DNA of 64,000 bases from Cytidiella melzeri (taxonomy: Eukaryota > Basidiomycota > Agaricomycetes > Polyporales > Irpicaceae). Below, piece by piece: positions 1-55,300 of the stretch. Position numbers and translations under genes: made by a program. Position 1 is the first letter of the stretch. Every line of letters begins with the position of its first letter. The stretch spans positions 37,632-101,631 of the forward strand of contig JABYQR010000153.1 in the NCBI GenBank assembly GCA_022592445.1. The letters run 5' to 3'. The notes beneath the pieces were generated by a model, which did not search any database, was not told where the DNA came from, and worked only from the letters and a program-made list of their open reading frames with translations.

Positions 1-1516
1 TCGATGGAATAGGAATCTTTTCTTTTAATCCCTTTGTTCCTTTGTGAAGATTTTCGACAATCTTATTCCCTGGGTGTCCTAGTCGATTATGCCACAACGT
101 GTAATCATTATGACTAACTTTATTAATTGAGTCTATCTTCCTGACTAGACGTCCTTTAATCCAATAAAGTCCGGCATGATCAGGTTGACCATTTATAATC
201 TCTTTTCCTTCATTATAAATTGTCCATCCTTTCGATGTAACACTGCTGGTGCATCCTTGTTGCAGTGCTCTAGAAGGAGAAAAGAATCTTGTAGTCGCAT
301 CTGGTATATAGAGGACATTGTTCAAAGTTGTGCGATGTATTTTATCTTTCACAAGGACCGTGTCAAGTACAACCGTTCCTTTTCCCAATATTTTGACAGT
401 CATATCTTTACCTGCTACAGAGCATGTACCTGCTACCGTTGCTGGTTGATACGAGATAAAGTCGTCAATTTCATTGGTTATGTGACTAGTAGCACCACTG
501 TCGATGAGCCATTCAACGCTTTCAGTCTCACACGTGGAATACAGAGAAACGTTGATGATTTCATTATCGTGCTCGAAGACAGGTTTGGTATCTACTTGAA
601 GATTATTTACAGTCGCTTTGTCTTTGCCTTTGCCTTTGGACTTCTTTCGTTGTCCTCCTTTCTTTCCTTTATTCTCCTTGTTACCCTGCTTGTTGTTGGT
701 AGAAGATCCTTGCTGATTATTTCCATTACCGCGAGACTTGTTCTGGTTAGGTTTCCCTTTATCCCAGTGCTGACTCGTAGTATGGTTAGAAAGCCCACAC
801 TTCTTGCATTTTTCCTTCGGTAAACGCGTGGTCTGCGTAATCCGATTCGCATTTTCACTGTTTGAACCCTTTCGACGTAACTCTTCCGCAAGTATCTTGG
901 GGATGAGCGTGTCAAACTTAATTTCTTCGGGTTTTGCAACAGTGCCAATGTATGCAGAAATGGCGGTTTCATATGACGTTGGTAAAGCCCACAAAAGAAT
1001 ATGAACTTTAATTTGATCATCAAGGTCTAACCCAGCAACTTTGGTATCTCCAATCTTAGTACGGAAGCCTTGAATTTGTACGTTCATATCCTTAGACTCA
1101 TCAAAAGTTGAGCTAAGTAGGTTTCTGAACGCAACAGAGCTTGCTAAGACTGATGTCTTCTCAAAATCTGTTTTCAACTTCTTCCACACTGCGGAGGCCA
1201 AATCCTCTCCTTCAAGATAGGATTGCAAAGTAATGTCAAGGTAAATATTGAAATAAGCTAAAGCGCGTTGGTTCCGAATTTCCCAATCCTTAAGTTCCTT
1301 CTTCTCATCAGAAGTGTCAGGAGGTGCAGTAGTCGTACCAGAACCTGAACTGGTTGCAGCTGCTGCGGGTAAGGTAGGTTTTGTTTCGGTTCCATTCACG
1401 ATTAACCAAGTGTTTGAATATCTGAACAAGCCAATCATAGCGGTGGACCATTTCTTGTAGTTTGAACCGTCAAAGACGATCATTTGACTACCGCTAATCT
1501 TTCCTGGTTCAGCCAT
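1..1516 (-). CDS. Ty1/copia gag-pol polyprotein, N-terminal part
   Basis: An uninterrupted frame of about 505 codons starts at ATG 1516 (MAEPGKISGSQ) and runs off the left edge. It begins with a copia-type gag domain (FDGSNYKKWSTAMIG), followed near residue 240 by a zinc knuckle of spacing C-X2-C-X4-H-X4-H, a Lys/Gly/Asn-rich linker, an aspartic protease motif WLIDSGATSH near residue 335, and the GAG-pre-integrase region (LWHNRLGHPGNKI) close to the edge. The gene would make virus-like particle protein, protease, integrase and reverse transcriptase for retrotransposition. The last Cys of the knuckle is replaced by His. No stop is present in the visible part, so the copy may be recent. Confidence 0.85.
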   Translation of the reverse strand, partial: MAEPGKISGSQMIVFDGSNYKKWSTAMIGLFRYSNTWLIVNGTETKPTLPAAAATSSGSGTTTAPPDTSDEKKELKDWEIRNQRALAYFNIYLDITLQSYLEGEDLASAVWKKLKTDFEKTSVLASSVAFRNLLSSTFDESKDMNVQIQGFRTKIGDTKVAGLDLDDQIKVHILLWALPTSYETAISAYIGTVAKPEEIKFDTLIPKILAEELRRKGSNSENANRITQTTRLPKEKCKKCGLSNHTTSQHWDKGKPNQNKSRGNGNNQQGSSTNNKQGNKENKGKKGGQRKKSKGKGKDKATVNNLQVDTKPVFEHDNEIINVSLYSTCETESVEWLIDSGATSHITNEIDDFISYQPATVAGTCSVAGKDMTVKILGKGTVVLDTVLVKDKIHRTTLNNVLYIPDATTRFFSPSRALQQGCTSSVTSKGWTIYNEGKEIINGQPDHAGLYWIKGRLVRKIDSINKVSHNDYTLWHNRLGHPGNKIVENLHKGTKGLKEKIPIPS

Positions 1517-2085
1517 TATAACCAAAAGCAATCAAGGATCAAGTCGTAGTACGGAATGTACACTTCAGAGATATGAGGTACTACAGGTGCAATTACAGGT
1601 GATGACGTCTGTTTAGAAGTTTCTTCTAGAAGATCTTCGACTTCGGTGTTTTCTCCGGAATCTGAGTTCTTATCTAGAGATTGACTGGATGTGTCACCAA
1701 TGTAAGTTGTGCCTGTGATGATCTCTGATGGTTCCTGATCTATTACTACTTCTGGTTCGTTGTTCTGTGGTTCTGATTCTCGACGATTTGCTAAGTCTAG
1801 AAGGTATGAATTGACTAAAGCAGGTACGTCAAGATGCGGTACAGATCCTATGTAACCTCTAATGAGTTCTTTCTGATGTTCAAAAGGTTCAAGATATCGG
1901 TCCTGTGTTACCAATGCAATAATTCTATAAACTTCGTTTAAATCTGCTTCAAACGAATATCTATAGCGGTTAGGGCACGGTTGTGTTTCACAGGGTCTTG
2001 CAACACTGTCGACGTCACAAAAGTTCTCTGAGTCAAAGAGGTGCAATTCGGAATTCGTACACGCTAATGAAGCCAGAGTACAACG
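1516..2085 (-). CDS. open frame ending in a TAATG overlap with gag
   Basis: A frame open from the stop near 2086 to the TAA at 1516-1518 encodes about 189 residues with no internal methionine, acidic and Ser/Thr-rich in its C-terminal half. Its TAA shares its last base with the gag ATG, giving TAATG. No ATG start is visible, so it is probably entered by splicing (a pyrimidine-rich stretch ending in CATTAG lies just inside the open frame near 2065), by frameshift from the broken ORF upstream, or is a remnant. I do not recognise the product. Confidence 0.35.
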   Translation of the reverse strand, partial: RCTLASLACTNSELHLFDSENFCDVDSVARPCETQPCPNRYRYSFEADLNEVYRIIALVTQDRYLEPFEHQKELIRGYIGSVPHLDVPALVNSYLLDLANRRESEPQNNEPEVVIDQEPSEIITGTTYIGDTSSQSLDKNSDSGENTEVEDLLEETSKQTSSPVIAPVVPHISEVYIPYYDLILDCFWL

Positions 2086-2296
2086 TTACAAACTAAGTAA
2101 AGAAAAGTCATAAAAGTTCGTCAGAATGCGCTACGTGATGGTCGTGACTCGAAGCAGAACAGAGAGAGATAGAGAAATATACAAGTACACTACGGACTAC
2201 GCTAATGAAAATGACCGTTTGTAAAAGTATAAAGTACACATCGCGATATTTTATAGTATACAGTGCGCGGTATAGTTCGATTTGCAGAGAGTCCGT

Positions 2297-3693
2297 TCAA
2301 AGAGAAGACGATCCAGGCTCTAAAGAAGGCTCGAGCGCAGCGGGCTCGATCTTTACCTCCTTCATTTTACCTTTGAACTCTTCCTCCCTATGAAAGATGC
2401 TCATCCAGTCTTCCTTCTTCTCCATACGTCTCTGAGTCAGCCAGACCAGCTGGTGATCGCTAAGATGATCGCGACCATTGAAGACCTCCATCGCTGTGTG
2501 AAAGTCCGCAACTGAGATGAAGTAGTGTTCCAGATGTTATCACAGTCCGGCCACTGTCCCCTCTTGAGTTGAGGTAGATCGGGCACAGGCTGTATCTCTT
2601 GATCCTCTGAGACTTGGCAAACTCTTCCAACTCCTCACCATCTCCGATAGTGTCGCATTTGTTCCCATGCTACGACCATCGTGTCGACGAGTCCCCTAGA
2701 GCGTAGACAGCTCATTGGGCGTATAGTTGGGTGGTTGACGTGTTGCATAGCGAGGATGGAACAAACCTGCTCCGGCCTGAATACCTCCCCCTTTGGTCCA
2801 TCCACGCCATAAACCATACCACACGATAGACAGGCGAAGCCGGCCTAGTGTCGGTACGATCGACGTGGACCCAGTCGTCGAATGAGAAGGTGGGAACGAC
2901 TGGTTGGGGAGCGAATACCGTTGGCCATTCATCTTCAACCTGTCCCTCCTCCTGAGTAGTGGAGGACGGAACCGGAGTAGGCTCGGCAGCAGAAGCGGCC
3001 TGGACTACTGGTTCTGAAGAATCATGAGAAACTGGTGAACTGATATTTAAACCGTTCATACCATCAACGATATCCGGAATGACCGGTGTAGGCGGATTGA
3101 CCATTGTAGAAGAAGTCTGTGGAGATGCAAAATTATTTAATGCTTGGGCAACCATGTCCCAAAGCGATAATCCTGCACTCACAAAAGGCGGTGGCATTGG
3201 AGTAGGATGACGATGGGATGAGGGTGCGACGGCGACGCAGATCGGCGCGGAGGTGCAGCATTAACCCTGGAAGAACTTTGGGTTTGATGCGCCCTGATTT
3301 CCGCACTGACATTACGAGGCCTTCGTCTGTATAAATCCAATTCCGCCTCACGATTGGCTTCATCGATGATACGATTAACCTCTCGGAGGTGCCTTTGCCT
3401 GTCACTCTGCCTGAACCTGTCCCAGCCATGACGACCGAGAAGGCTGTACTCCATCGATTCCATGCGCCGACTCCGTCCCTGTCAACGTAGTTGACATTGA
3501 TCCTGGCATCCTGAGCATCGGTTTGACTCATACGGATAGAGATGGGAGTTGCTGAACTCCTTATCTCCATAACGATGGGGTGACCCATACGGTCAAACCG
3601 AGTGTAGTCATGAACGCGGTAGGGATCATTGGGAGAATGGGGAGCGAAGCGGGCATTGACGCGACGGGAAGTGCGGCGAGAGTTGTTCGGCAT
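2297..3693 (-). pseudogene. frame-broken accessory ORF in the copia leader
   Basis: From the ATG at 3693 coding-like sequence continues leftwards to the stop near 2297 but switches frame several times: around 3465, 3215, 2815, 2640 and 2540. The pieces have protein character: a basic Arg-rich N-terminus (NNSRRTSRRVNARF), an acidic/basic helical stretch, a Pro/Ser-rich middle and a charged C-terminus ending near GSSSL. Joined, it would exceed 400 residues. I do not recognise the family. Its place between primer site and gag suggests an extra ORF carried by the element, or a host fragment; part of the switching could instead be introns. Confidence 0.45.
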
Positions 3694-4470
3694 CTTCAAA
3701 AATATAATGGTCTGGAAGAAAGAATCGAAAGTATAAGATTTATGTCGTCGTATTCAATCCACAACACTTTCCTTGAGAAAGTCCTGGGGATTGCTAATGG
3801 AAAAGTCGAATGTGAGTAAAAGTTTTCCACAAGTGATTCAAGACGAGTATGACCACTTGCAACTTCGACTTCTACCAGTCGGTATGATACGACGAAAACA
3901 TAATGGCGCATGTAAGAAACACCACGAAGTATAGGAGAGTCCACAATCTCCGTGATACCAAAAGTAAAAGTGGACGACATGCCTCAAGAAATTCTACAGC
4001 TACAAAAAGCGGCGATTTCTAATTCCAGGACTGACTGACGTGCGCCAACACGAAGGTCCTAGGCCTCTAAGTCACGAGCTTAGAGTGCCACTCAACACTA
4101 CCCTCCTATTGTACTACTCCGCCGATCTACCACTTGTACAAGTGGGAGCTTGTTCCTCCACCACCGGATTTTACACTGCGTGTTAGGCAGATTCCGCGTA
4201 ATGCACGACTCGTTAAAGTCGAGAACCACCAAGGGTGGCTTAAGTATTCAGCTGGGTTGGGAGTGCGTACGCAAGGGGCAAGTAGGTGAGGGAATTAGCT
4301 GTAGAAGATCAGTTGGGAATATTGTATTCGAAGCTGAGGCAGTCAACCAGTACAACTCTACTACTACTATGTGGCCAAACAAAGTAAAGTAGAGAAACTT
4401 ACTTATAAGAAAGCTTGGGGGATACTGGTTGGTGGATGTCGTTGAGAGTGTGGATGTAGTTAAGTTAAAA

Positions 4471-45476: not shown

Positions 45477-45649
45477 TTTGCGTTGCGGACGATGGGTAAG
45501 GTGATAGTAAAGGGTAACTCGCGACTGGCGGCTATCGACGTGCACTCTTAAATTCACGACGAATTACATCAGTAAGGACAAGTTATTCGTATTTATTTCG
45601 CTGAATTTCCATCGAACTTCTATTCACTGTACACGCCCAGGCCGCCACC
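45477..45649. promoter_or_regulatory. divergent promoter between CIN1-like gene and small split gene
   Basis: 173 bp between two opposite start codons; the right one has the strong context GCCGCCACCATG. Confidence 0.4.
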
Positions 45650-48600
45650 ATGCTCAAGGAGTAAGTTCTCACCTAATGTAGTCTGAGTTTTGACGCGGGG
45701 GCCTTTGCAGTAGGTTCCCGATTTGGAATTCTGTTTCCTTTTTGAGCGAGGATCAACCGTTGAGCGTTTCATCTCCTGCTCCGAACGCGCACTGCCTGCC
45801 TGCCTTCGTTACGACTTTCTACACTACTTACGCCCTCATCTGCAATCTATGCAGCACACTTGGGACTCATCCGAGTCTGGAGATGTTGCCTTCCATGTAC
45901 TCGCACCTGAGTTGACTGCTCCTCCGCTGCTTGACTCTCTGAATTCCCGCCTTGATGCCGTCCTGCAATGTATGCAAAGTCATAACTTCACGCTTGGAGG
46001 ATTCCTCGTTGAGCTCTTCCGGGCTGGATCCGACAGGACAAAGAAGAAGACCCAGCGCCATACACAGATGGTGTCCAGCTTTCTTGATGGCCGCTCAAAA
46101 CAATATGACGCTATCAGCCTTGTCAAGGAGTTGTACAACAGCAGGCACTCGACTACAAGAAACCATGAGAGTGAGGAGTTTTTGGCACGCAATAAGCTGC
46201 AACAGTGGGCGGTTGAAGTGGTTGAGGACATGGTCAGCAGAGAGGCAGAGGAACTCGCATCAAAAGAGGGTGGACTACGACTGGCTGGGGAAATGACATG
46301 GGAGTTTGCAACGCAGTTCTCGCTTGCCCCCCTTGCAAGAGCAGCTTGGAAAATGTCTCCAACATGTATTCGTGTTCTGGCTGCCACAGCTATCTCGAAG
46401 GAAGGCCGAAAGAAGCCTCCGTCCTGGTTTGCTCAAGCACAGGGTGCTCCCCAGCTGCCTAGTGCAACTACTACCAGAGCTACTCAGTCTGGTCAGGGTA
46501 AAAACAGGAGGGATCCCTGGGTTGTAAGTCATCAATTCAGTCACAAGCACATAGTCACTGACTGGTTGCACAATGCTCAGATTGTTATCATTGTATTCAT
46601 GATGCTTCTGAATGCTCGAAACCTGCGCTTTACGGTACTTCAGAAGTTGATGGGTGTTTGGCTTTTTGCAAACTCAGCTGCTCGTGGTGTATACGACGTT
46701 CTCGGAAGAATAGGCCTCTCTGTGGCATACTCAACCACTCTTGAGCTACTGAGAGGTCTGTCGCAGACTGCACAGAGCTCTCTGAGAACAGAAGCAACCA
46801 GGAGTGTACTGAGCATTGTGTACGATAACATCAATCGGAAGAGGGAGGTGTGGGATGCAGAATATGGCGAGCGGGCGGTTATTGATAGTGGAACTGTTGC
46901 AACTGCGATCATACTCGAAGATTGCGAACCAGAGATAGCATTCAACATTGCAGCCCTAGAACAAGCAAGAGCAAAGAGACTTCGGGAACAGCTCACTGTC
47001 GAAGTACTCCTTTCTCGTATCGACCAGGGCCACCTTAACCGTGTGCTTGCTGTTCACGTTGTCTCATTTCTCGTGATGGAGTTCCCGCACCTATCACACT
47101 TTCAGCCAATGCTCAATAACAAGCTCCGCACCGAACTAGCAACACATCGTATGCGAAAAGGTCGGCGTACCCAGGCATTCCCAATGGCTGCTTCAGAACA
47201 CGATGAAGGGTCTACAGAGGGGAACCGCAAGGTTATCGATGACCTGCTGCTCAACCAGCTTGGCTTGAAGAAGGATGAAGTCAAACGCATGCTTACTATT
47301 GTGACAGGCGACCAATCCACCATAGAGAAAATTCGCACCCTCAAGCGTTTCCTTGACAGCTGTCCTCACGGCTATCACCAGTATGGCTGGGTTCTACCTT
47401 TAATTCAGCTGTGGCATATGGGTTGGTCAGACCTCGAGCGGATTCTTGACACCCACTGGGGTCCCAAATCTTGCTCAAAGGAGAGTGAGGTTCGCATTGA
47501 GGATGTATCTACATTCAGCTTTGTCAATGAGCTTCTTGGACGAAAGGTGAAGAACATGAAACGCCCCGACTATTATCCAGCACAGGCTCTTGTCTTTGAT
47601 ACACTTCGCGCAGAAGTTCTTGAATGTTGGCGGTAAGCCCATGGGAGCAGATCTTAACTACTGGCAAGTAGGCTTACAGATTTTCTCACTTTTGTAGTGA
47701 ACACTATCAGACGGATGATCTCGGAGTGTATATGGTCACCAGACAGCCAACACTTGATGAGCTTCTGCAGGATGCACAGCGTCTTGTCAATACCTACCTC
47801 ACAACAGCATCTGCTGAGTGTGCTTTACAGGGCAGACTTGCAGAGACTCTGTTTTCTGCAGGCTCTCAGTGGACCAGCCCGTTCCAAGGAAGCTCAGCAC
47901 CTGCTGCACCAAGGGGAGATCAAGTACTGGCAAACACAATTCTGCGTATGCGTGATAGCATGCTACATTATGAGTTCCAATCAGCCATTGCTGACGGGGA
48001 CATTGGACGTGCTATGAATGTGATGGCAGTATGTGTTTTCTCACTGTATGCAAAGAATGTATTGTGTGTACTCAGATTTTCTATTGCAGGTGTGGGTATT
48101 ACATTCTGCGGTTCAGGCAGAAGCAAATACACAAATGAGCTTCTGGAGGTGGCTTGCAACTTGAATATGATACTCCAATGAGTTGAAGACTGCCATCATG
48201 AATAACTGGTTGTGTAACTTGACTGGGGATGAAGGACGCTGGTTTCCAATGGATCTCATGCAAGAACATAACATCAATCTCCTAAAATCAATGTCAGGCA
48301 GCCGCAGTTCACCATTTGCTGATCCATTCTTCAAAGAGGTTATTTCCCTGAACATTCGCAATTTCCTAGATATCAAAGAGTCTCTACGAACGGCTGTTGG
48401 AATTGGTGCAAAGAGTGGTAGCCACAAGCAAAAGAAAAAAGCAGTAGCTTTGAGGCATCTCCGAAACACCATGCGCGAGCACGAGCTCCACAAGTTTCGA
48501 GCAAGCCGGACCTTTGATTCATGGCTCAAGACGACTTGCAGCAGGATATGATCGCTTTGACTACACTTCTCGCATTGAGGACTTTGTACAACGGACTCTT

Positions 48601-51555
48601 GCAGACATGGGTATTTGCATGGTGTTGAAGAAGTGGACAATGAGGATGCTCTCGAAGCAGACTTTGATGCTCGAGACCCAGTATATGGCAAGATGGTGAA
48701 CTGGTATTGGGTACAGATGTAGAAGATGAAGACGATAATGTATTAGATGAGCAGTCAACAGAGTAGATAGAAGCTTAGTGGTAATGCAAGCTGTGCTACA
48801 GAGCCAAAAAAGGAACAAAGTAGATAGAAGTCAATCATTGTTATGATGGGCTTGCTTTGTTGGACGTCTGTCTCCAAATCACTCTGTGAGCGTTTCCGAC
48901 TTGATTTTGTGGTGAGCTAGGAGCTAAGGAACTAACAGAGTCAGCATCTGCTCCCCCCAAATTGTTGTCACCGATTGTAGGAAGGAGGTCGGGTTGGTTT
49001 TCTTTGTTAGCCTCCTCAGGCCAGAACCATCCAATGAGTGAGGTGCAAGACGTAGGGTTACCCGCTTCACATTGCCAAGACCTACAGCACGTAGGTTGGC
49101 ACGAACCTCCTGTATCTTCTCTCGCTGCTGCCGTGTTGACTCCCGTCTCTGCTTTAAAACCTCCTCGTGACGACTTGTGAAAGTGACAGTCATCTCGTGT
49201 TGAAGCCGTGTGACCTCATCCCACAGATAGTCCCATACCTGTCCCAATACCTCCAACCATCCAACCTTGCCCGCAGATCATCCTTGGTCTTTATGAGAAA
49301 GAATTGGTCGGTGACACGAGCAATGAGGCTACGTGGAAGGAAGCTTCGATAGCCAACAAGGAGGCTATCAGGGCCAAAAGGCATCTCGGAGTAGCGACAT
49401 TGCATGCGGCAGTATGAAGTTCTTTCGTGAGGTACTCACATCTTTTGTTGTCATCTTCATGTATGATGCAAGTGGTGGTATGGATGTAGTAGGCTGCGTG
49501 GTAGAAGAGCAACCAGTGATAGATAGAGGACGAGGGGCAGGCATAGGACGCAAGAAACAGGAACTACAATGTCCACAGTCTCGGTTGACAGCAGGGTTCT
49601 GGTAGATCATGTTGATTTGACGTACAATGCAGACACCTTGTACATGTGCAGCAATGATGAGCCAGAGAGAGAGGTTGTTGAGCCATGCGGTCGAATTGAT
49701 GGTAGCGCCGACTTTTCCCGAGACTTTCTTGCCCTCTACATCTCGTATGAAGCCCCTTAATAGCCGGCTGTCCAGATTCGGTCTTTGCAGATATGCATCG
49801 ACAGCCTCGATATCAGTCTTCTTAATGTAGATGTAGGCCGTCCCATGACGATCACGTCCACGCGATGTGCGCCCAGCCTTCTGAATCATGGATGCTGCAC
49901 TTGACGGTGTCGGAAAGCATACCACTCGGTCAAAATCCTGAACATCCATCCCAACACCTAGGACATCCGTCGCAACGTAGATCGCCGTTTGCCTGTCCTC
50001 GGAAGGTACGTAAAGACCTTCGGAAATCTGAACTTTGCAGTGAGGACAGTTCAGGGAATGGACGTGCCGAACGACAATTGTCTGCTGCGGTTGCAAGCGC
50101 CGAGGAAGCAGCGAACGTAGGTATTTGACAATCTTGTGGCCTTGAGAGATAGTCTCGCAGTAGAGCAAAGTCTTGTCAATATCGGCGACAACCGCGGCGT
50201 CGGCTGGGACAAGCCAATCAAGGTCGCGGAAATATTCGGTCGTATGGGTGTATTCAATAGTACGCATCACGATGTCGACGTTTCGGCGTTCGCAGTCCCG
50301 TCGTTCCAAGAAGAAGTTGCCGTGTTGAAAGCCCAACGCTTTCGTGATGACGTCTGTCTGTCGTTGCGGTTCGAGCGTGGCCGTCAAGCCAAGACGCACC
50401 GTTCCAGGGGGAAGCCAGGGTATCGTCCGATGAATCTCCCCGTATGCCTTTCGAAAGTCGGCCCCCCATTCGTCCACCAGATGACATTCGTCAACAACAA
50501 ACAAGGCAAGACGCTCGCGGACGTTTGCGTTCTCAATGAAGATCCTGAACGACTTGGTTTGTAGCATCTCCGGGGACATGAGGAGGATGCGGTATTGTCC
50601 TTCGCGTGCTTCCTTCCAGAGGTCGCGCCTCTCTGCTGTGGGTAAATGTATGTTCGCCAGTGTCGCGGACTCAAGAGCCTCGGAGTTGAGTGCTATAGCT
50701 GAGATGTTCAGCTTCGCGAGATTTCTGACCTGTGAAGTCGCGTGTTTCAGCAATGGAACAGACTGCCAGTCGAGAAACTCACCATATCATCTTCGAGGGC
50801 ATTGGTCGGCGCAACCACAATCGTCATGGTGTCTGGTCTCATGAGCGAGTACGTGTAGAAGATGGCCGACTTGCCATCACCCGTCGCAGAGATGACCAGC
50901 CCATGCTTGCCCATCAAAAGCTCGGCCAATGGCTTGAGCTGGAGATCGATGTTCGGCTCCCACGGGAGCTTAGGACGCAGTCGCTCTTGTAGCTGCGCAA
51001 TCCCGTCAGGTGTACGCCAGTCATACTGTCCCCGCGTCGACCAGTCGGACATTGTTGATGGTGCAGGCATCAGGACGAGAATAGACGGAGGAAAAAAAAA
51101 TGTATTCGGGACTGTATGGTAATAGCCAACATATACAAATATGCGTAGCTGGTGGACGTGAGTTGAGGAACGATAGCGAGAGTAACGCGTCGTGCTGGAG
51201 AGCGAGAGCGACGCGTCGTGCTGGGTGGCAGATCCAGATCTCAACGCGGTAAACAAGATCACGAGACACCGTAATAGCCGCTGAAACACCTACTGCAAAA
51301 GGGGGGTGAAACAGACGCAGACGTCAGACAGAGATCCTGAGGCACGAAGGTTGAACGCCCGTCTACTCTGCCTCGGGGAGACTAACCTAATGTCCTGTGC
51401 CGCAATGCTAACATCACTCTAGGTACTTCAACCACTGCTTCAAGGCCGATTTGCGCATGTTCGCCATCCGCGACGGAGCGCTCCCGACTGGTCCCGCAGA
51501 CCTGTTAGCCATCCAGCGGGCCATCGACAAGTTCATGGCCTGTGCCGTGGTTTGA
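45650..51555 (+). CDS. small host gene apparently split by a transposon in its intron
   Basis: Exon 1 is 45650-45660 (ATG in perfect Kozak context, 11 nt, donor GTAAGT at 45661). Exon 2 is 51423-51555 (acceptor CACTCTAG). Together they close in frame to 47 aa (MLKEYFNHCFKADLRMFAIR at the start, KFMACAVV at the end). The 12-bp inverted repeats of the DUF6589/helicase element lie inside this 5.8-kb intron; without the element it would be about 166 nt. I do not recognise the product. Alternatives: exon 1 belongs to the element's own transcript, or further small exons lie in 51300-51420. Confidence 0.35.
45704..45715 (+). repeat. left terminal inverted repeat
   Basis: TTTGCAGTAGGT, perfect inverse of 51288-51299. 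Allowing one T of length difference, the match extends outward by CC on both sides. Confidence 0.65.
45849..48780 (+). pseudogene. DUF6589-domain protein, frameshifted (putative transposase)
   Basis: The first exon 45849-47632 is open for about 595 codons from ATG 45849 (MQHTWDSSESGDVAF) and joins 47698 onwards by a clean GT-AG intron. The central pattern (LHNAQIVIIVFMMLLNARNLR, VLGRIGLSVAYSTTLELLRGL), then YQTDDLGVYMV, RDSMLHYEFQSAIADGDIGR, GSGRSKYTNELLEVACNL and LKTAIMNNWLCNLTG, are what I recall from Agaricomycete DUF6589 proteins. After about 48090 the frame shifts repeatedly (near 48090, 48165, 48178, 48520 and 48620), each shift restoring family-like sequence in another frame, the last ones GYDRFDYTSRIEDFVQRTLA and VEEVDNEDALEADFDARDP. 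So the C-terminal third is decayed. Confidence 0.75.
48924..51070 (-). CDS. RecQ-like superfamily II DNA helicase (transposon-borne)
   Basis: Exons 51070-50783, 50729-49440 and 49384 onwards. Motif I SATGDGKSAIF, Ia VVAPTNALEDDM, II VVDECHLVDEWGADFR (DECH rather than RecQ's usual DEAH), III GLTATL, V YVATDVLGVGMDVQDFDRVV, VI IQKAGRTSRGRDRHG, and a Cys cluster RDCGHCSSC in the RecQ zinc-binding position. A C-terminal extension follows (DSLLVGYRSFLPRSLIARV, then a helical TRLQHEMTVTFTSRHEEVLK segment). One frame change near 49262 separates RARLDG from the downstream frame, ending at the stop 48924; it may be a mutation or unrecognised intron. The core is intact, unlike its DUF6589 neighbour. 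Start could also be ATG 51052. Confidence 0.85.
51176..51225. repeat. 26-bp tandem duplication near right TIR
   Basis: Two near-identical units with period 26, both containing CGCGTCGTGCTGG, lie about 60 bp inside the right terminal repeat. Subterminal repeats of this kind are often transposase-binding sites; that role is inferred. Confidence 0.5.
51288..51299 (-). repeat. right terminal inverted repeat
   Basis: ACCTACTGCAAA, inverse of 45704-45715, lying about 220 bp upstream of the helicase start. Confidence 0.65.
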
Positions 51556-52168
51556 TGTGGTCGCCTCTGCTGTCGTGCTCTGCGCCGCGTCGCCTTTGCT
51601 GTTGTGTTCGCCCTCGTTTTTGCTTGTCCGATACTGTCGTTTCCCGTTCTTATACGCTGTCATTTACAACATTGTCGTAGCCTTTTGATAGCCTAATATC
51701 ATTGCATGCTAATATAAACCACCTGTCTGATTGTGAAAAGATTGATACATTGAACACCTGTTGCACACCGCGAGAGTACATCAGGCTGTACGCTAACTAC
51801 AAATGTACATGCGTCGTCATTACACTGTCGGTATAGTGTACAAGGTAAGTCCAAATTACAATCCTACCCGGATATTGGTGCACTATCCACGGATTATATC
51901 AACCGGATAACTGACTATTTATATCCAAGGGATGCGAGCGCGGGACATATCGCGACACTATCGTTTACGCTAATTCGTGCATACGCGGCCAGATATCCCA
52001 ACGTACCCTGGCTTCGCCTGAGCATCCGAGGTGGACTTCGCCTTGATCTTGTTTGAAAGTTACGAGTGTAGGGGATGACTTGGAAGGTCAACTAACTCTA
52101 GGAGTAAGTGTCTTATCATTTCTCTGCTCTCTAGGAGCGGTATATAAACATGTCTGTAAATAGATTAC
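51556..52168. other. intergenic, no supported gene
   Basis: Between the small split gene and the copia insertion. No coding frame or repeat recognised. Confidence 0.5.
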
Positions 52169-52347: not shown

Positions 52348-52356
52348 CTCCCCTTC
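52348..52356 (-). other. polypurine tract
   Basis: GAAGGGGAG on the minus strand directly before the 3' LTR, the expected plus-strand primer. Confidence 0.8.
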
Positions 52357-55300
52357 AAGCCTGAACATGAAGTAGTTCATTGAAGTGCTTGAGTTTTTCG
52401 AGAGGTAGTGCTTTAGTAAGAGTATCAGCACGTTGATCGGCAGAAGGTACGTGGTGCACAGTGATGTACCCTTTAGTTACACGATCGCTGATGAAGTTCT
52501 TGCGAATGTTAAAGTGTTTAGTACGTTGAGAGTGTTGTTCCTCGGGGGAACGAACAATCGCAAGAGTTGACGCACTGTCGGTATATAGTTTGACAGGGTC
52601 CATAGTGCAGTTAAGTATTTCATCTATGAGGCTCTTCAAATAGATGGCCTCTGTGGACACATGAGCAAGTGCGTACAGTTCGGCTTCGGTGACCGATAAA
52701 GTTACAAGTGAACCGCGCTTACTTGACCAAGAGATAAGCGAGTCGTTGTATGTGAAAATGTAGCCCATTATTGGTTTATTGCCGTACGTAGTCATACCAT
52801 CAGAGTCGGCATAACCTACGAGTGAAGTAGAAGTAGGGTTGGCTTGGTTTCCTAGGACAAGCCAGTAGTCGCACGTTCCCTTGAGGTAAAGGTAACACTG
52901 TTTAGCTGCAGCGTAGTGTTCCTTAGCAGGGTCAGATAAGTATCGTGCTAGTTGACCAGTGCAATAAGCAATGTCTGGTCAAGTACTGTCGGCGACGTAG
53001 CGTAAGCCACCAACAAGAGACATGTAGTGTGTAATGGCGTCAGCGTCCTGACGTGGTTCGGTCACAGCACGGGGGGCTAAGTTGTGCTCGTGTACCATTG
53101 GTGTACGGCGTGAATGTTCGTGGTCAAAGTTGTATCGCTTAAGTATGTTCAGGATATAATCCCTTTGACGAAGCTTGATAATGCCTGCGGCTTTATCATA
53201 AGCAACTTCCATGCCAAGCATCCAGTGGATAGTTCCACCGTTAGTAAGTTCGACATGTTGTCTGAGTGCGATCTCAAATTTTTCGGCAACAGTAGTAGTG
53301 ATAGTGCCAAGAGTAATGTCATCGACATGAACAGCAAGTAGAAGTATAAGTTTATCACCTCGATAGAGGTAGAAGACTGCATTGTCGAATTCACAACGCT
53401 TCAGTCCAAGTGCGAAGAGTATGTCGCATAGTACTTTATACCAACAACGTCCGGCTTGCTTAAGGCCATAGATAGTCTTCCGAAGTTTAAGTACCCAGCC
53501 AGGTGGCAGGTTCGGAAGTAAGTCACCAGGAGGTGGACGAAGATAAAGGTCTTCATCGTCGTGGATGTTACCGTATAAGTATGCGGACTTGATATCGAGC
53601 TGAGTAATCTCGAAGTGTAGTGAAGCCGCGAGAGTAAGTACAAATCGTAGTGAACTCATACGCGCAACAGGTGCGAATAAGTCATTCGAGTAGTAATCAA
53701 TGCCGTCACGCTGGGAGTATCCTTGCGCAACAAGTCTTGACTTGAGTTTAGTGACTTTGCCGTGTTCATATTTTGTTTTGTAGACAAAGCGCGAACCAGT
53801 GATGTTCGCATTTGGCGGCGGGATACAGTATTCCCAAGTGCCAAGTTGTTCGAGGGTATCAACCTCAGTTTTCATCGACTTGAGCCAGTCGATTTTGAGT
53901 GGGTGGTTAAGTACGTCTTTGTAAGTAACTGGATCACCGACGTCTTCAGCGTAGTATGCGTTGAATTCAGTCAAGTAAAAGGCAATGTTTGTATCGACTT
54001 CATCATAGTTTAAGCCTCGAGCTTTGCGCGAAGGCTTAGGCTCTCTAGTAGTACGCCTAGGACCAGAAGAGTCAGGCTCGTCGATGTCCATGGGTTCAAC
54101 ATGAGGGTTCTCCTCGAGTTGAAGTTGTTTTTCAAGAGTAGGTTGTTCGATATTTGGTTCTTTCTCCCCTTCAATTTGTGCCGTAGAGTCAACAAATTGC
54201 AAGTTTCGTTTGACGCCTACGCGTGTTCCGAAGTAAACGTAGTGGCCTTTGGAATATTCAGCAAAGCCTATCCAAACGGCGCGCTTGCCTTTTGGCGCGA
54301 GTTTATTGGTTCGGTATTCGTCGTATACGATACACGGTTGACCAAACTTTTGAAGCGCATCAAGGTTCGCTTCAGTACCATAGCGTTTAAAGTAAGGAGT
54401 TTTATATTGAAGAGGAGCACGAGGAGTGCGATTATAGAGATAAACCGCATGAAGCGCAGCGTACCACCATAACCGGTTCGTTAAAGCAGCTGTGTGTAGG
54501 TTTACACGAACCAAGTTCATAATAGTCTGGTGTGTGCGCTCAGCAACACCATTTTGTGCAGGAGTATCGTGCACAGTAAGCCGGGGTATAGTACCTTGTG
54601 ACTTCAAGTAGTTTGTCATATTTGCACCAGTGAATACGCCATTGTTGTCAGATTGAAGAATCTTAACGCGAATATTGTATTGCGTAAGAAGCTCAGTAGA
54701 GAAGATAACCCATTGAGTGAAGGCATCATCTTTAGTTTTTAATGGCGCAAGTGTTAACCATCGAGTTGAGTCGTCGACGATAGTCAACCAGTACAGATAA
54801 TGACCAGTAATCGACGCAGTGGGTAGTGGCCCAAAGATGTCGATATGAAAGTGATCACCGAAGGAAGTAGCCAACAGCGAAGTACGAGCTTTGGGGACTG
54901 GAGTACGATGAATATTATTCAAGATACAGTCCTCGCACGGAGTTTCTGTGTGGTCAGTGATATGAGTAGTAATGATAAGTTTGGACGTTTCAAGTAGTTT
55001 GTTTATCTGGAAATAACTGATGTGACCGAGTTTTTTATGAAGTTCAAGCATCGTTATACCAGACTTATGCACGCTTGCTAAAGAAGTCACGCGAGTAGAG
55101 TTGAGTGAATACAAATCGTGTATTTTTCGTATCACAGCTACACAAGACGCGTTCGAGTCATATATAGTACAAGTATTTGAAAAGAAAGTAAAGCGATAGT
55201 CAGCGTCCAATTTTGAAACACTGATAAGCGTGAAGGGTAGTTGTGAGTTATAGTAGACATTCTTTAGCATAAGTTGATTATGCGTACCATTTTCTTGTTC

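Follow-up and report, generated by a model that had tools for sequence, protein, structure and literature searches.

DUF6589 as the probable transposase of a helicase-bearing DNA transposon in Cytidiella melzeri

Does the DUF6589 gene that lies beside a RecQ-like helicase gene in the basidiomycete Cytidiella melzeri encode the transposase of a mobile element, and if so, where does that element end? The locus is contained in a window of 64,000 nucleotides (assembly GCA_022592445.1, contig JABYQR010000153.1, positions 37,632 to 101,631 of the forward strand), the term being used here for the whole stretch of DNA analysed. An initial annotation had described the two genes as a DNA transposon bounded by a perfect 12-bp inverted repeat, with DUF6589 as transposase, the helicase as its partner and target duplications of 3-4 bp. 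We conclude that the locus is very probably a 5706-bp cut-and-paste DNA transposon in which DUF6589 is the DDE transposase and the RecQ-like helicase a conserved second protein. The DNA evidence comes from this one species, and other fungi were represented as proteins only.

The boundaries were deduced from the other copies in the genome. The 5596-bp unit, used as a query against the genome, had 37 matches, and both ends could be read in eight copies of the window's family. Both arms of the 12-bp repeat (TTTGCAGTAGGT) were confirmed by sequence search (two matches at one mismatch or fewer against 0.23 expected, a number reached in 3 of 100 shuffles). They begin 26 bases inside the left end of the element and 86 bases inside the right end, and homology between copies runs on outside them, for about 25 bp at the left arm and 85 bp at the right. 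The 25 bases outside the repeat were closely similar among the copies printed, on the sides read, and among the 40 candidates scored of 85 in the right-flank search, identity ran for 85 bp and then ended in most copies. The left flanks diverge from TAGTCT outwards. The common outer limits of the copies are TAGTCT...AGACTA, and the inverted repeat of 12 bp is subterminal and does not mark an element end.

Perfect 8-bp duplications were present in five of the eight copies, namely the window (ACCTAATG), C724 (GAGTTGAG), C229 (GTTGTACT), C157 (GTTTTGTA) and C435 (GTCTCACG). No duplication was found in C168, which is split by an insertion, in C136, or in C390, where the right end is displaced by an insertion and altered. 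The family thus combines terminal inverted repeats with duplications of fixed length at unrelated sites, as DDE cut-and-paste transposons do, and the duplications are of 8 bp here and 9 bp in a second family (family E, below) rather than the 3-4 bp first proposed. An uninterrupted site was also identified. When the window flanks were joined with a single ACCTAATG, they aligned through the junction to paralogous genes; the gene on C23 carries ACCTAATG once, those on C204 and C623 carry ACCTACTG instead, and the match on C49 covered the downstream part only. Host genes on C204 and C23 also match the part of the left flank that lies upstream of 45680, and other members of the same host gene family match the right flank beyond the 85 bp. 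Judged by eye from its GTAAGT...TAG limits, the insertion site looks like a short intron in a small gene. With its ends, its 8-bp duplications, the uninterrupted site and insertions at unrelated sites, the transposon proposed by the initial annotation stands; the boundaries proposed for it do not.

The whole query was contiguous in three copies (C61, which is the window, C724 and C229), and the C168 copy holds it complete but divided by another insertion. Several copies are decayed. That of the window is slightly so, as its DUF6589 gene shifts frame near the 3' end relative to the C724 protein (P0001, annotated as 913 amino acids) and its main helicase frame is 472 amino acids long, against 653 in C724. 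The 98.6% identity of the C724 copy to the window, together with the fact that both its main frames are open, suggests fairly recent movement.

The role of DUF6589 was deduced from its predicted fold and its conserved residues. One predicted model gave, with moderate scores, an RNase H-like transposase fold, for which the nearest fold was that of Hermes. A D-D-E triad (Asp-Asp-Glu) of candidate catalytic residues is conserved with the spacing D-(153-164)-D-(246-287)-E; the counts given for it in Table 1 refer to an alignment of 29 rows with gaps omitted. A DDE-transposase-like fold carrying a conserved triad is thereby supported for DUF6589, in keeping with its first assignment as transposase. 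Among the Pfam matches of 29 DUF6589 proteins, DUF6589 was the only transposase family. The DUF6589 profile gave 0 matches to PDB sequences up to an E value of 10, and a search of viral contigs gave 35 pattern matches and no relative. In three protein searches the named relatives were solely fungal and were accompanied by unnamed metagenome proteins; each search scored 7992-7996 candidates, so the absence of animal proteins is weak evidence. The transposase may have stayed hidden under its DUF label because the Pfam model starts after the first catalytic Asp.

The association with the helicase was examined genome-wide. Among proteins of known structure, the helicase is closest to RECQ5, BLM and bacterial RecQ, and its motifs (Table 1) are what we take to be Walker A, DECH, motif VI and a Cys cluster. 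The PF20231 profile gave 120 genome matches, which were merged into 82 loci. With the window helicase alone as query, a helicase lay within 12 kb at 51 of these 82 loci, counting the nearest one, and 50 of the 51 pairs were convergent. When the matches of a second family's helicase were added, giving 88 helicase loci, 59 of the 82 DUF6589 loci were paired within 8 kb, all 59 convergently and with a median gap of 2.1 kb; this count preferred a convergent helicase among several neighbors, a slight bias to convergence. Random placement would pair about 3%. Since loci within one family are related, the 82 loci are not independent events. The remaining 23 lack a helicase partner, and at least one of them (C93:6-1253) is at a contig end. 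These data support the RecQ-like helicase as the usual partner of DUF6589, as had been proposed for the window, where the DUF6589 gene on the forward strand and the helicase gene on the reverse strand converge.

Family E, with copies on C352, C173 and C667 that are 99.7-99.8% identical to one another, has the same gene pair in diverged form. Its DUF6589 gene matches PF20231 with an E value of 7.5e-36 (C352), and its helicase is 27% identical to that of the window. Homology between the copies ends at TAGTCTCG...CGAGACTA, and 9-bp duplications were found in two of the three (GGTACCAAC in C352 and GTGGGAAGG in C667; none in C173). Subterminal inverted repeats are present as well, their sequence differing from that in the window's family. 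The same terminal hexamer, a similar duplication and the same gene pair argue strongly that this pair goes with these ends. For a further family (D, on C579 and C212), clear ends were not found; a sequence of about 40 bp beside the left limit of one copy was seen, by eye, inverted beside the right limit of the other. The termini of family D may lie further out or may differ between copies. At C314 the left end matches, and the right end was not found within the stretch read.

Several copies of the window's family have histories of their own. The insertion that splits the C168 copy (C168:103420-108877) is about 5.4 kb long, and the two halves share three element bases (2837-2839), which is what a transposon with a 3-bp duplication would leave. 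The C157 copy (C157:40781-42496) is non-autonomous, having lost query positions 257-4245 by internal deletion, and retains intact ends and its own duplication. In the C390 copy, another transposon interrupts the right end: an insertion of about 3 kb with inverted ends ACTTGACGTTAATC...GATTAACGTCAAGT and an apparent 9-bp duplication GACAGAGAT. The last ~62 bp of the element (51323-51384) recur at many loci with up to 100% identity. Of the 43 rows of the right-flank search, 18 cover only about positions 16-89 of that flank (for example, C290:95397-95458, C54:48560-48621, C24:212243-212304 and C713:83442-83510). Four such loci were read; only the ~62-bp stretch was common to them, and no TAGTCT left end was seen within 1.8 kb. 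Two pattern searches did not find left-end partners for the C290 and C54 right ends; one gave a single match, which lay on a different contig, and the other gave nothing. These loci may be solo ends, or non-autonomous elements that differ in their interiors.

Table 1. Coordinates of the transposon, its genes and its insertion site in the window
Feature	Position	Strand	Basis or remark
Whole transposon	45679..51384	+	5706 bp; copies at unrelated sites lose homology here; full-length identity 98.6% (C724), 97.7% (C229)
Left 8-bp target site duplication, ACCTAATG	45671..45678	.	present once at the uninterrupted C23 paralogue site
Right copy of target site duplication, ACCTAATG	51385..51392	.	flank reading
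Left terminal inverted repeat, TAGTCT	45679..45684	+	outer limit of homology between copies
Right terminal inverted repeat, AGACTA on +	51379..51384	-	outer limit of homology
Left subterminal inverted repeat, TTTGCAGTAGGT	45704..45715	+	candidate transposase binding site
Right subterminal inverted repeat, exact inverse of TTTGCAGTAGGT	51288..51299	-	motif search
DUF6589 gene (probable transposase), introns and stop included	45849..48766	+	PF20231, E value 6.5e-52
First catalytic Asp candidate codon (D307 of P0001, VYDN)	46824..46826	+	kept in 27/27
Second catalytic Asp candidate codon (D469, GDQ)	47310..47312	+	kept in 27/28
Catalytic Glu candidate codon (E746, QEH)	48264..48266	+	kept in 23/23
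RecQ-like SF2 helicase gene, open extent in this copy	49368..51070	-	two open frames, 49368-50753 and 50747-51070
Helicase Walker A	50864-50887	-	motif reading
Helicase DECH	50478-50498	-	motif reading
Helicase motif VI	49860-49883	-	motif reading
Helicase Cys cluster, CGHCSSC	49557-49577	-	motif reading
Host gene of the insertion, small, multicopy	45635-45678 and 51393-51600		relatives on C23, C49, C204, C623, C707

Outside the element, an open reading frame at 52355-52795 on the reverse strand resembles, by eye, a Copia-type polyprotein at its RNase H end.

In the mechanism that we propose, DUF6589 has an RNase H-like core that is interrupted, between the second Asp and the Glu, by a long and mostly helical stretch. 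The protein would recognize the element ends, perhaps also binding the subterminal inverted repeats, and would catalyze staggered cutting at TAGTCT/AGACTA, with insertion at a stagger of 8 bp (9 bp in family E). Movement would follow a cut-and-paste route rather than another DDE pathway. The helicase probably opens the ends or aids the repair or replication of the intermediate or gap. A likely function is thereby offered for a Pfam family that is found again and again in mushroom genomes and had none assigned, and predicted "host genes" that contain a DUF6589 domain need checking as transposase genes. Since the exact ends and the target duplications are now defined, and one copy in an identified species has both main frames open, what a helicase contributes to DDE transposition becomes directly testable.

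Three other explanations of the locus were weighed. The first, in which the 12-bp inverted repeats delimit the unit, is favored by the perfection of the repeats, which is rarely expected by chance. It is almost certainly wrong, as copies at unrelated sites share the sequence beyond the repeats on both sides and only then stop, with 8-bp duplications in five of eight. RecQ-like genes are known to lie close to fungal telomeres, and the decay of several copies would also fit a segmentally duplicated gene pair or a subtelomeric RecQ repeat that is no transposon at all; this explanation is contradicted by the differing flanks, the common termini, the target duplications and the uninterrupted site, and we regard it as highly improbable. 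The pairing of the helicase with DUF6589 at 59 of 82 loci would also fit if the helicase itself drove mobility, by a replicative, Helitron-like or peel-and-paste route, with DUF6589 as an accessory. This is very unlikely, since it is DUF6589 that has the predicted DDE-like fold and the triad, and no further nuclease turned up when five of the unit's reading frames were scanned against Pfam. Fixed-length duplications of 8-9 bp and inverted termini, both present here, are moreover typical of staggered insertion by DDE enzymes. A transposon mobilized by DUF6589 thus accounts best for the locus, and its place among known superfamilies can be considered.

In a literature search of partial coverage that did not include Repbase, neither a mention of DUF6589 nor, judged by titles and the opening of abstracts, a description of the element was found, so an earlier description is possible; the four papers containing the string PF20231 were, by title, not about a protein family, and Cytidiella melzeri was not mentioned. 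A RecQ helicase accompanies the transposase both here and in KolobokH. The target of Kolobok is TTAA, whereas the sites here are varied 8-9-mers (ACCTAATG to GTCTCACG). In the extracts available of its description, KolobokH is a fungi-only DNA transposon in which the transposase domain is followed downstream by the RecQ helicase, the RecQ helicase of one algal Kolobok is encoded on the opposite strand, and the Kolobok transposase carries a C/DxxH motif between the second D and the E (PMC9587614). In contrast, the transposase and helicase genes are convergent here, and C/DxxH occurs at any single position in at most 4 of 22 DUF6589 sequences. A Kolobok assignment was rejected on the varied target sites and the lack of a conserved C/DxxH. 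The 8-bp duplication of the window's family is shared with hAT elements (9 bp in family E), and Hermes supplied the nearest fold. Unlike hAT (Hermes) and the P element, however, the 29 DUF6589 proteins matched no hAT or other transposase family in Pfam, they have no conserved C/DxxH, and the DUF6589 element carries a helicase. Zisupton (KDZ) elements are likewise present in fungi and, according to the part available of PMC12730594, make 8-bp duplications. No KDZ family was found among the Pfam matches of the 29 proteins, a comparison made through Pfam and not directly with KDZ sequences, and the companion gene here encodes a helicase instead of a TET/JBP dioxygenase.

AcademH reportedly encodes a helicase, to judge from the title of Kojima 2020, and like the present element it is a DNA transposon with a transposase and a helicase. 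The extracts available describe it as one source of transposon helicases, found in Basidiomycota, Ascomycota and Mucoromycota (PMC10799480), and give its duplications as 9 or 10 bp (PMC10045372). A finer version of our reading would make the element a fungal AcademH of the Academ superfamily, DUF6589 being Pfam's name for the AcademH transposase; we consider the chances of this evenly balanced. The helicase, the host range and the 9-bp duplications of family E agree with it, but all five copies of the window's family that show a duplication have 8 bp, outside the range in those extracts. It is tentatively possible instead that elements with DUF6589 and a RecQ helicase form a superfamily of their own, made up of DDE transposons that carry a helicase and stand apart from Academ, Kolobok and hAT, although AcademH was compared by description only. 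Such a superfamily, widespread in Agaricomycetes, would be marked by TAGTCT termini, 8-9 bp duplications and the triad at the spacing given above without C/DxxH. The wider DUF6589 group straddles the lower limit of the AcademH range, with 8 bp in the window's family and 9 bp in family E. Because of its 8-bp duplications the window's family is not filed here as AcademH; because of the 9 bp in family E, kinship with AcademH is quite possible.
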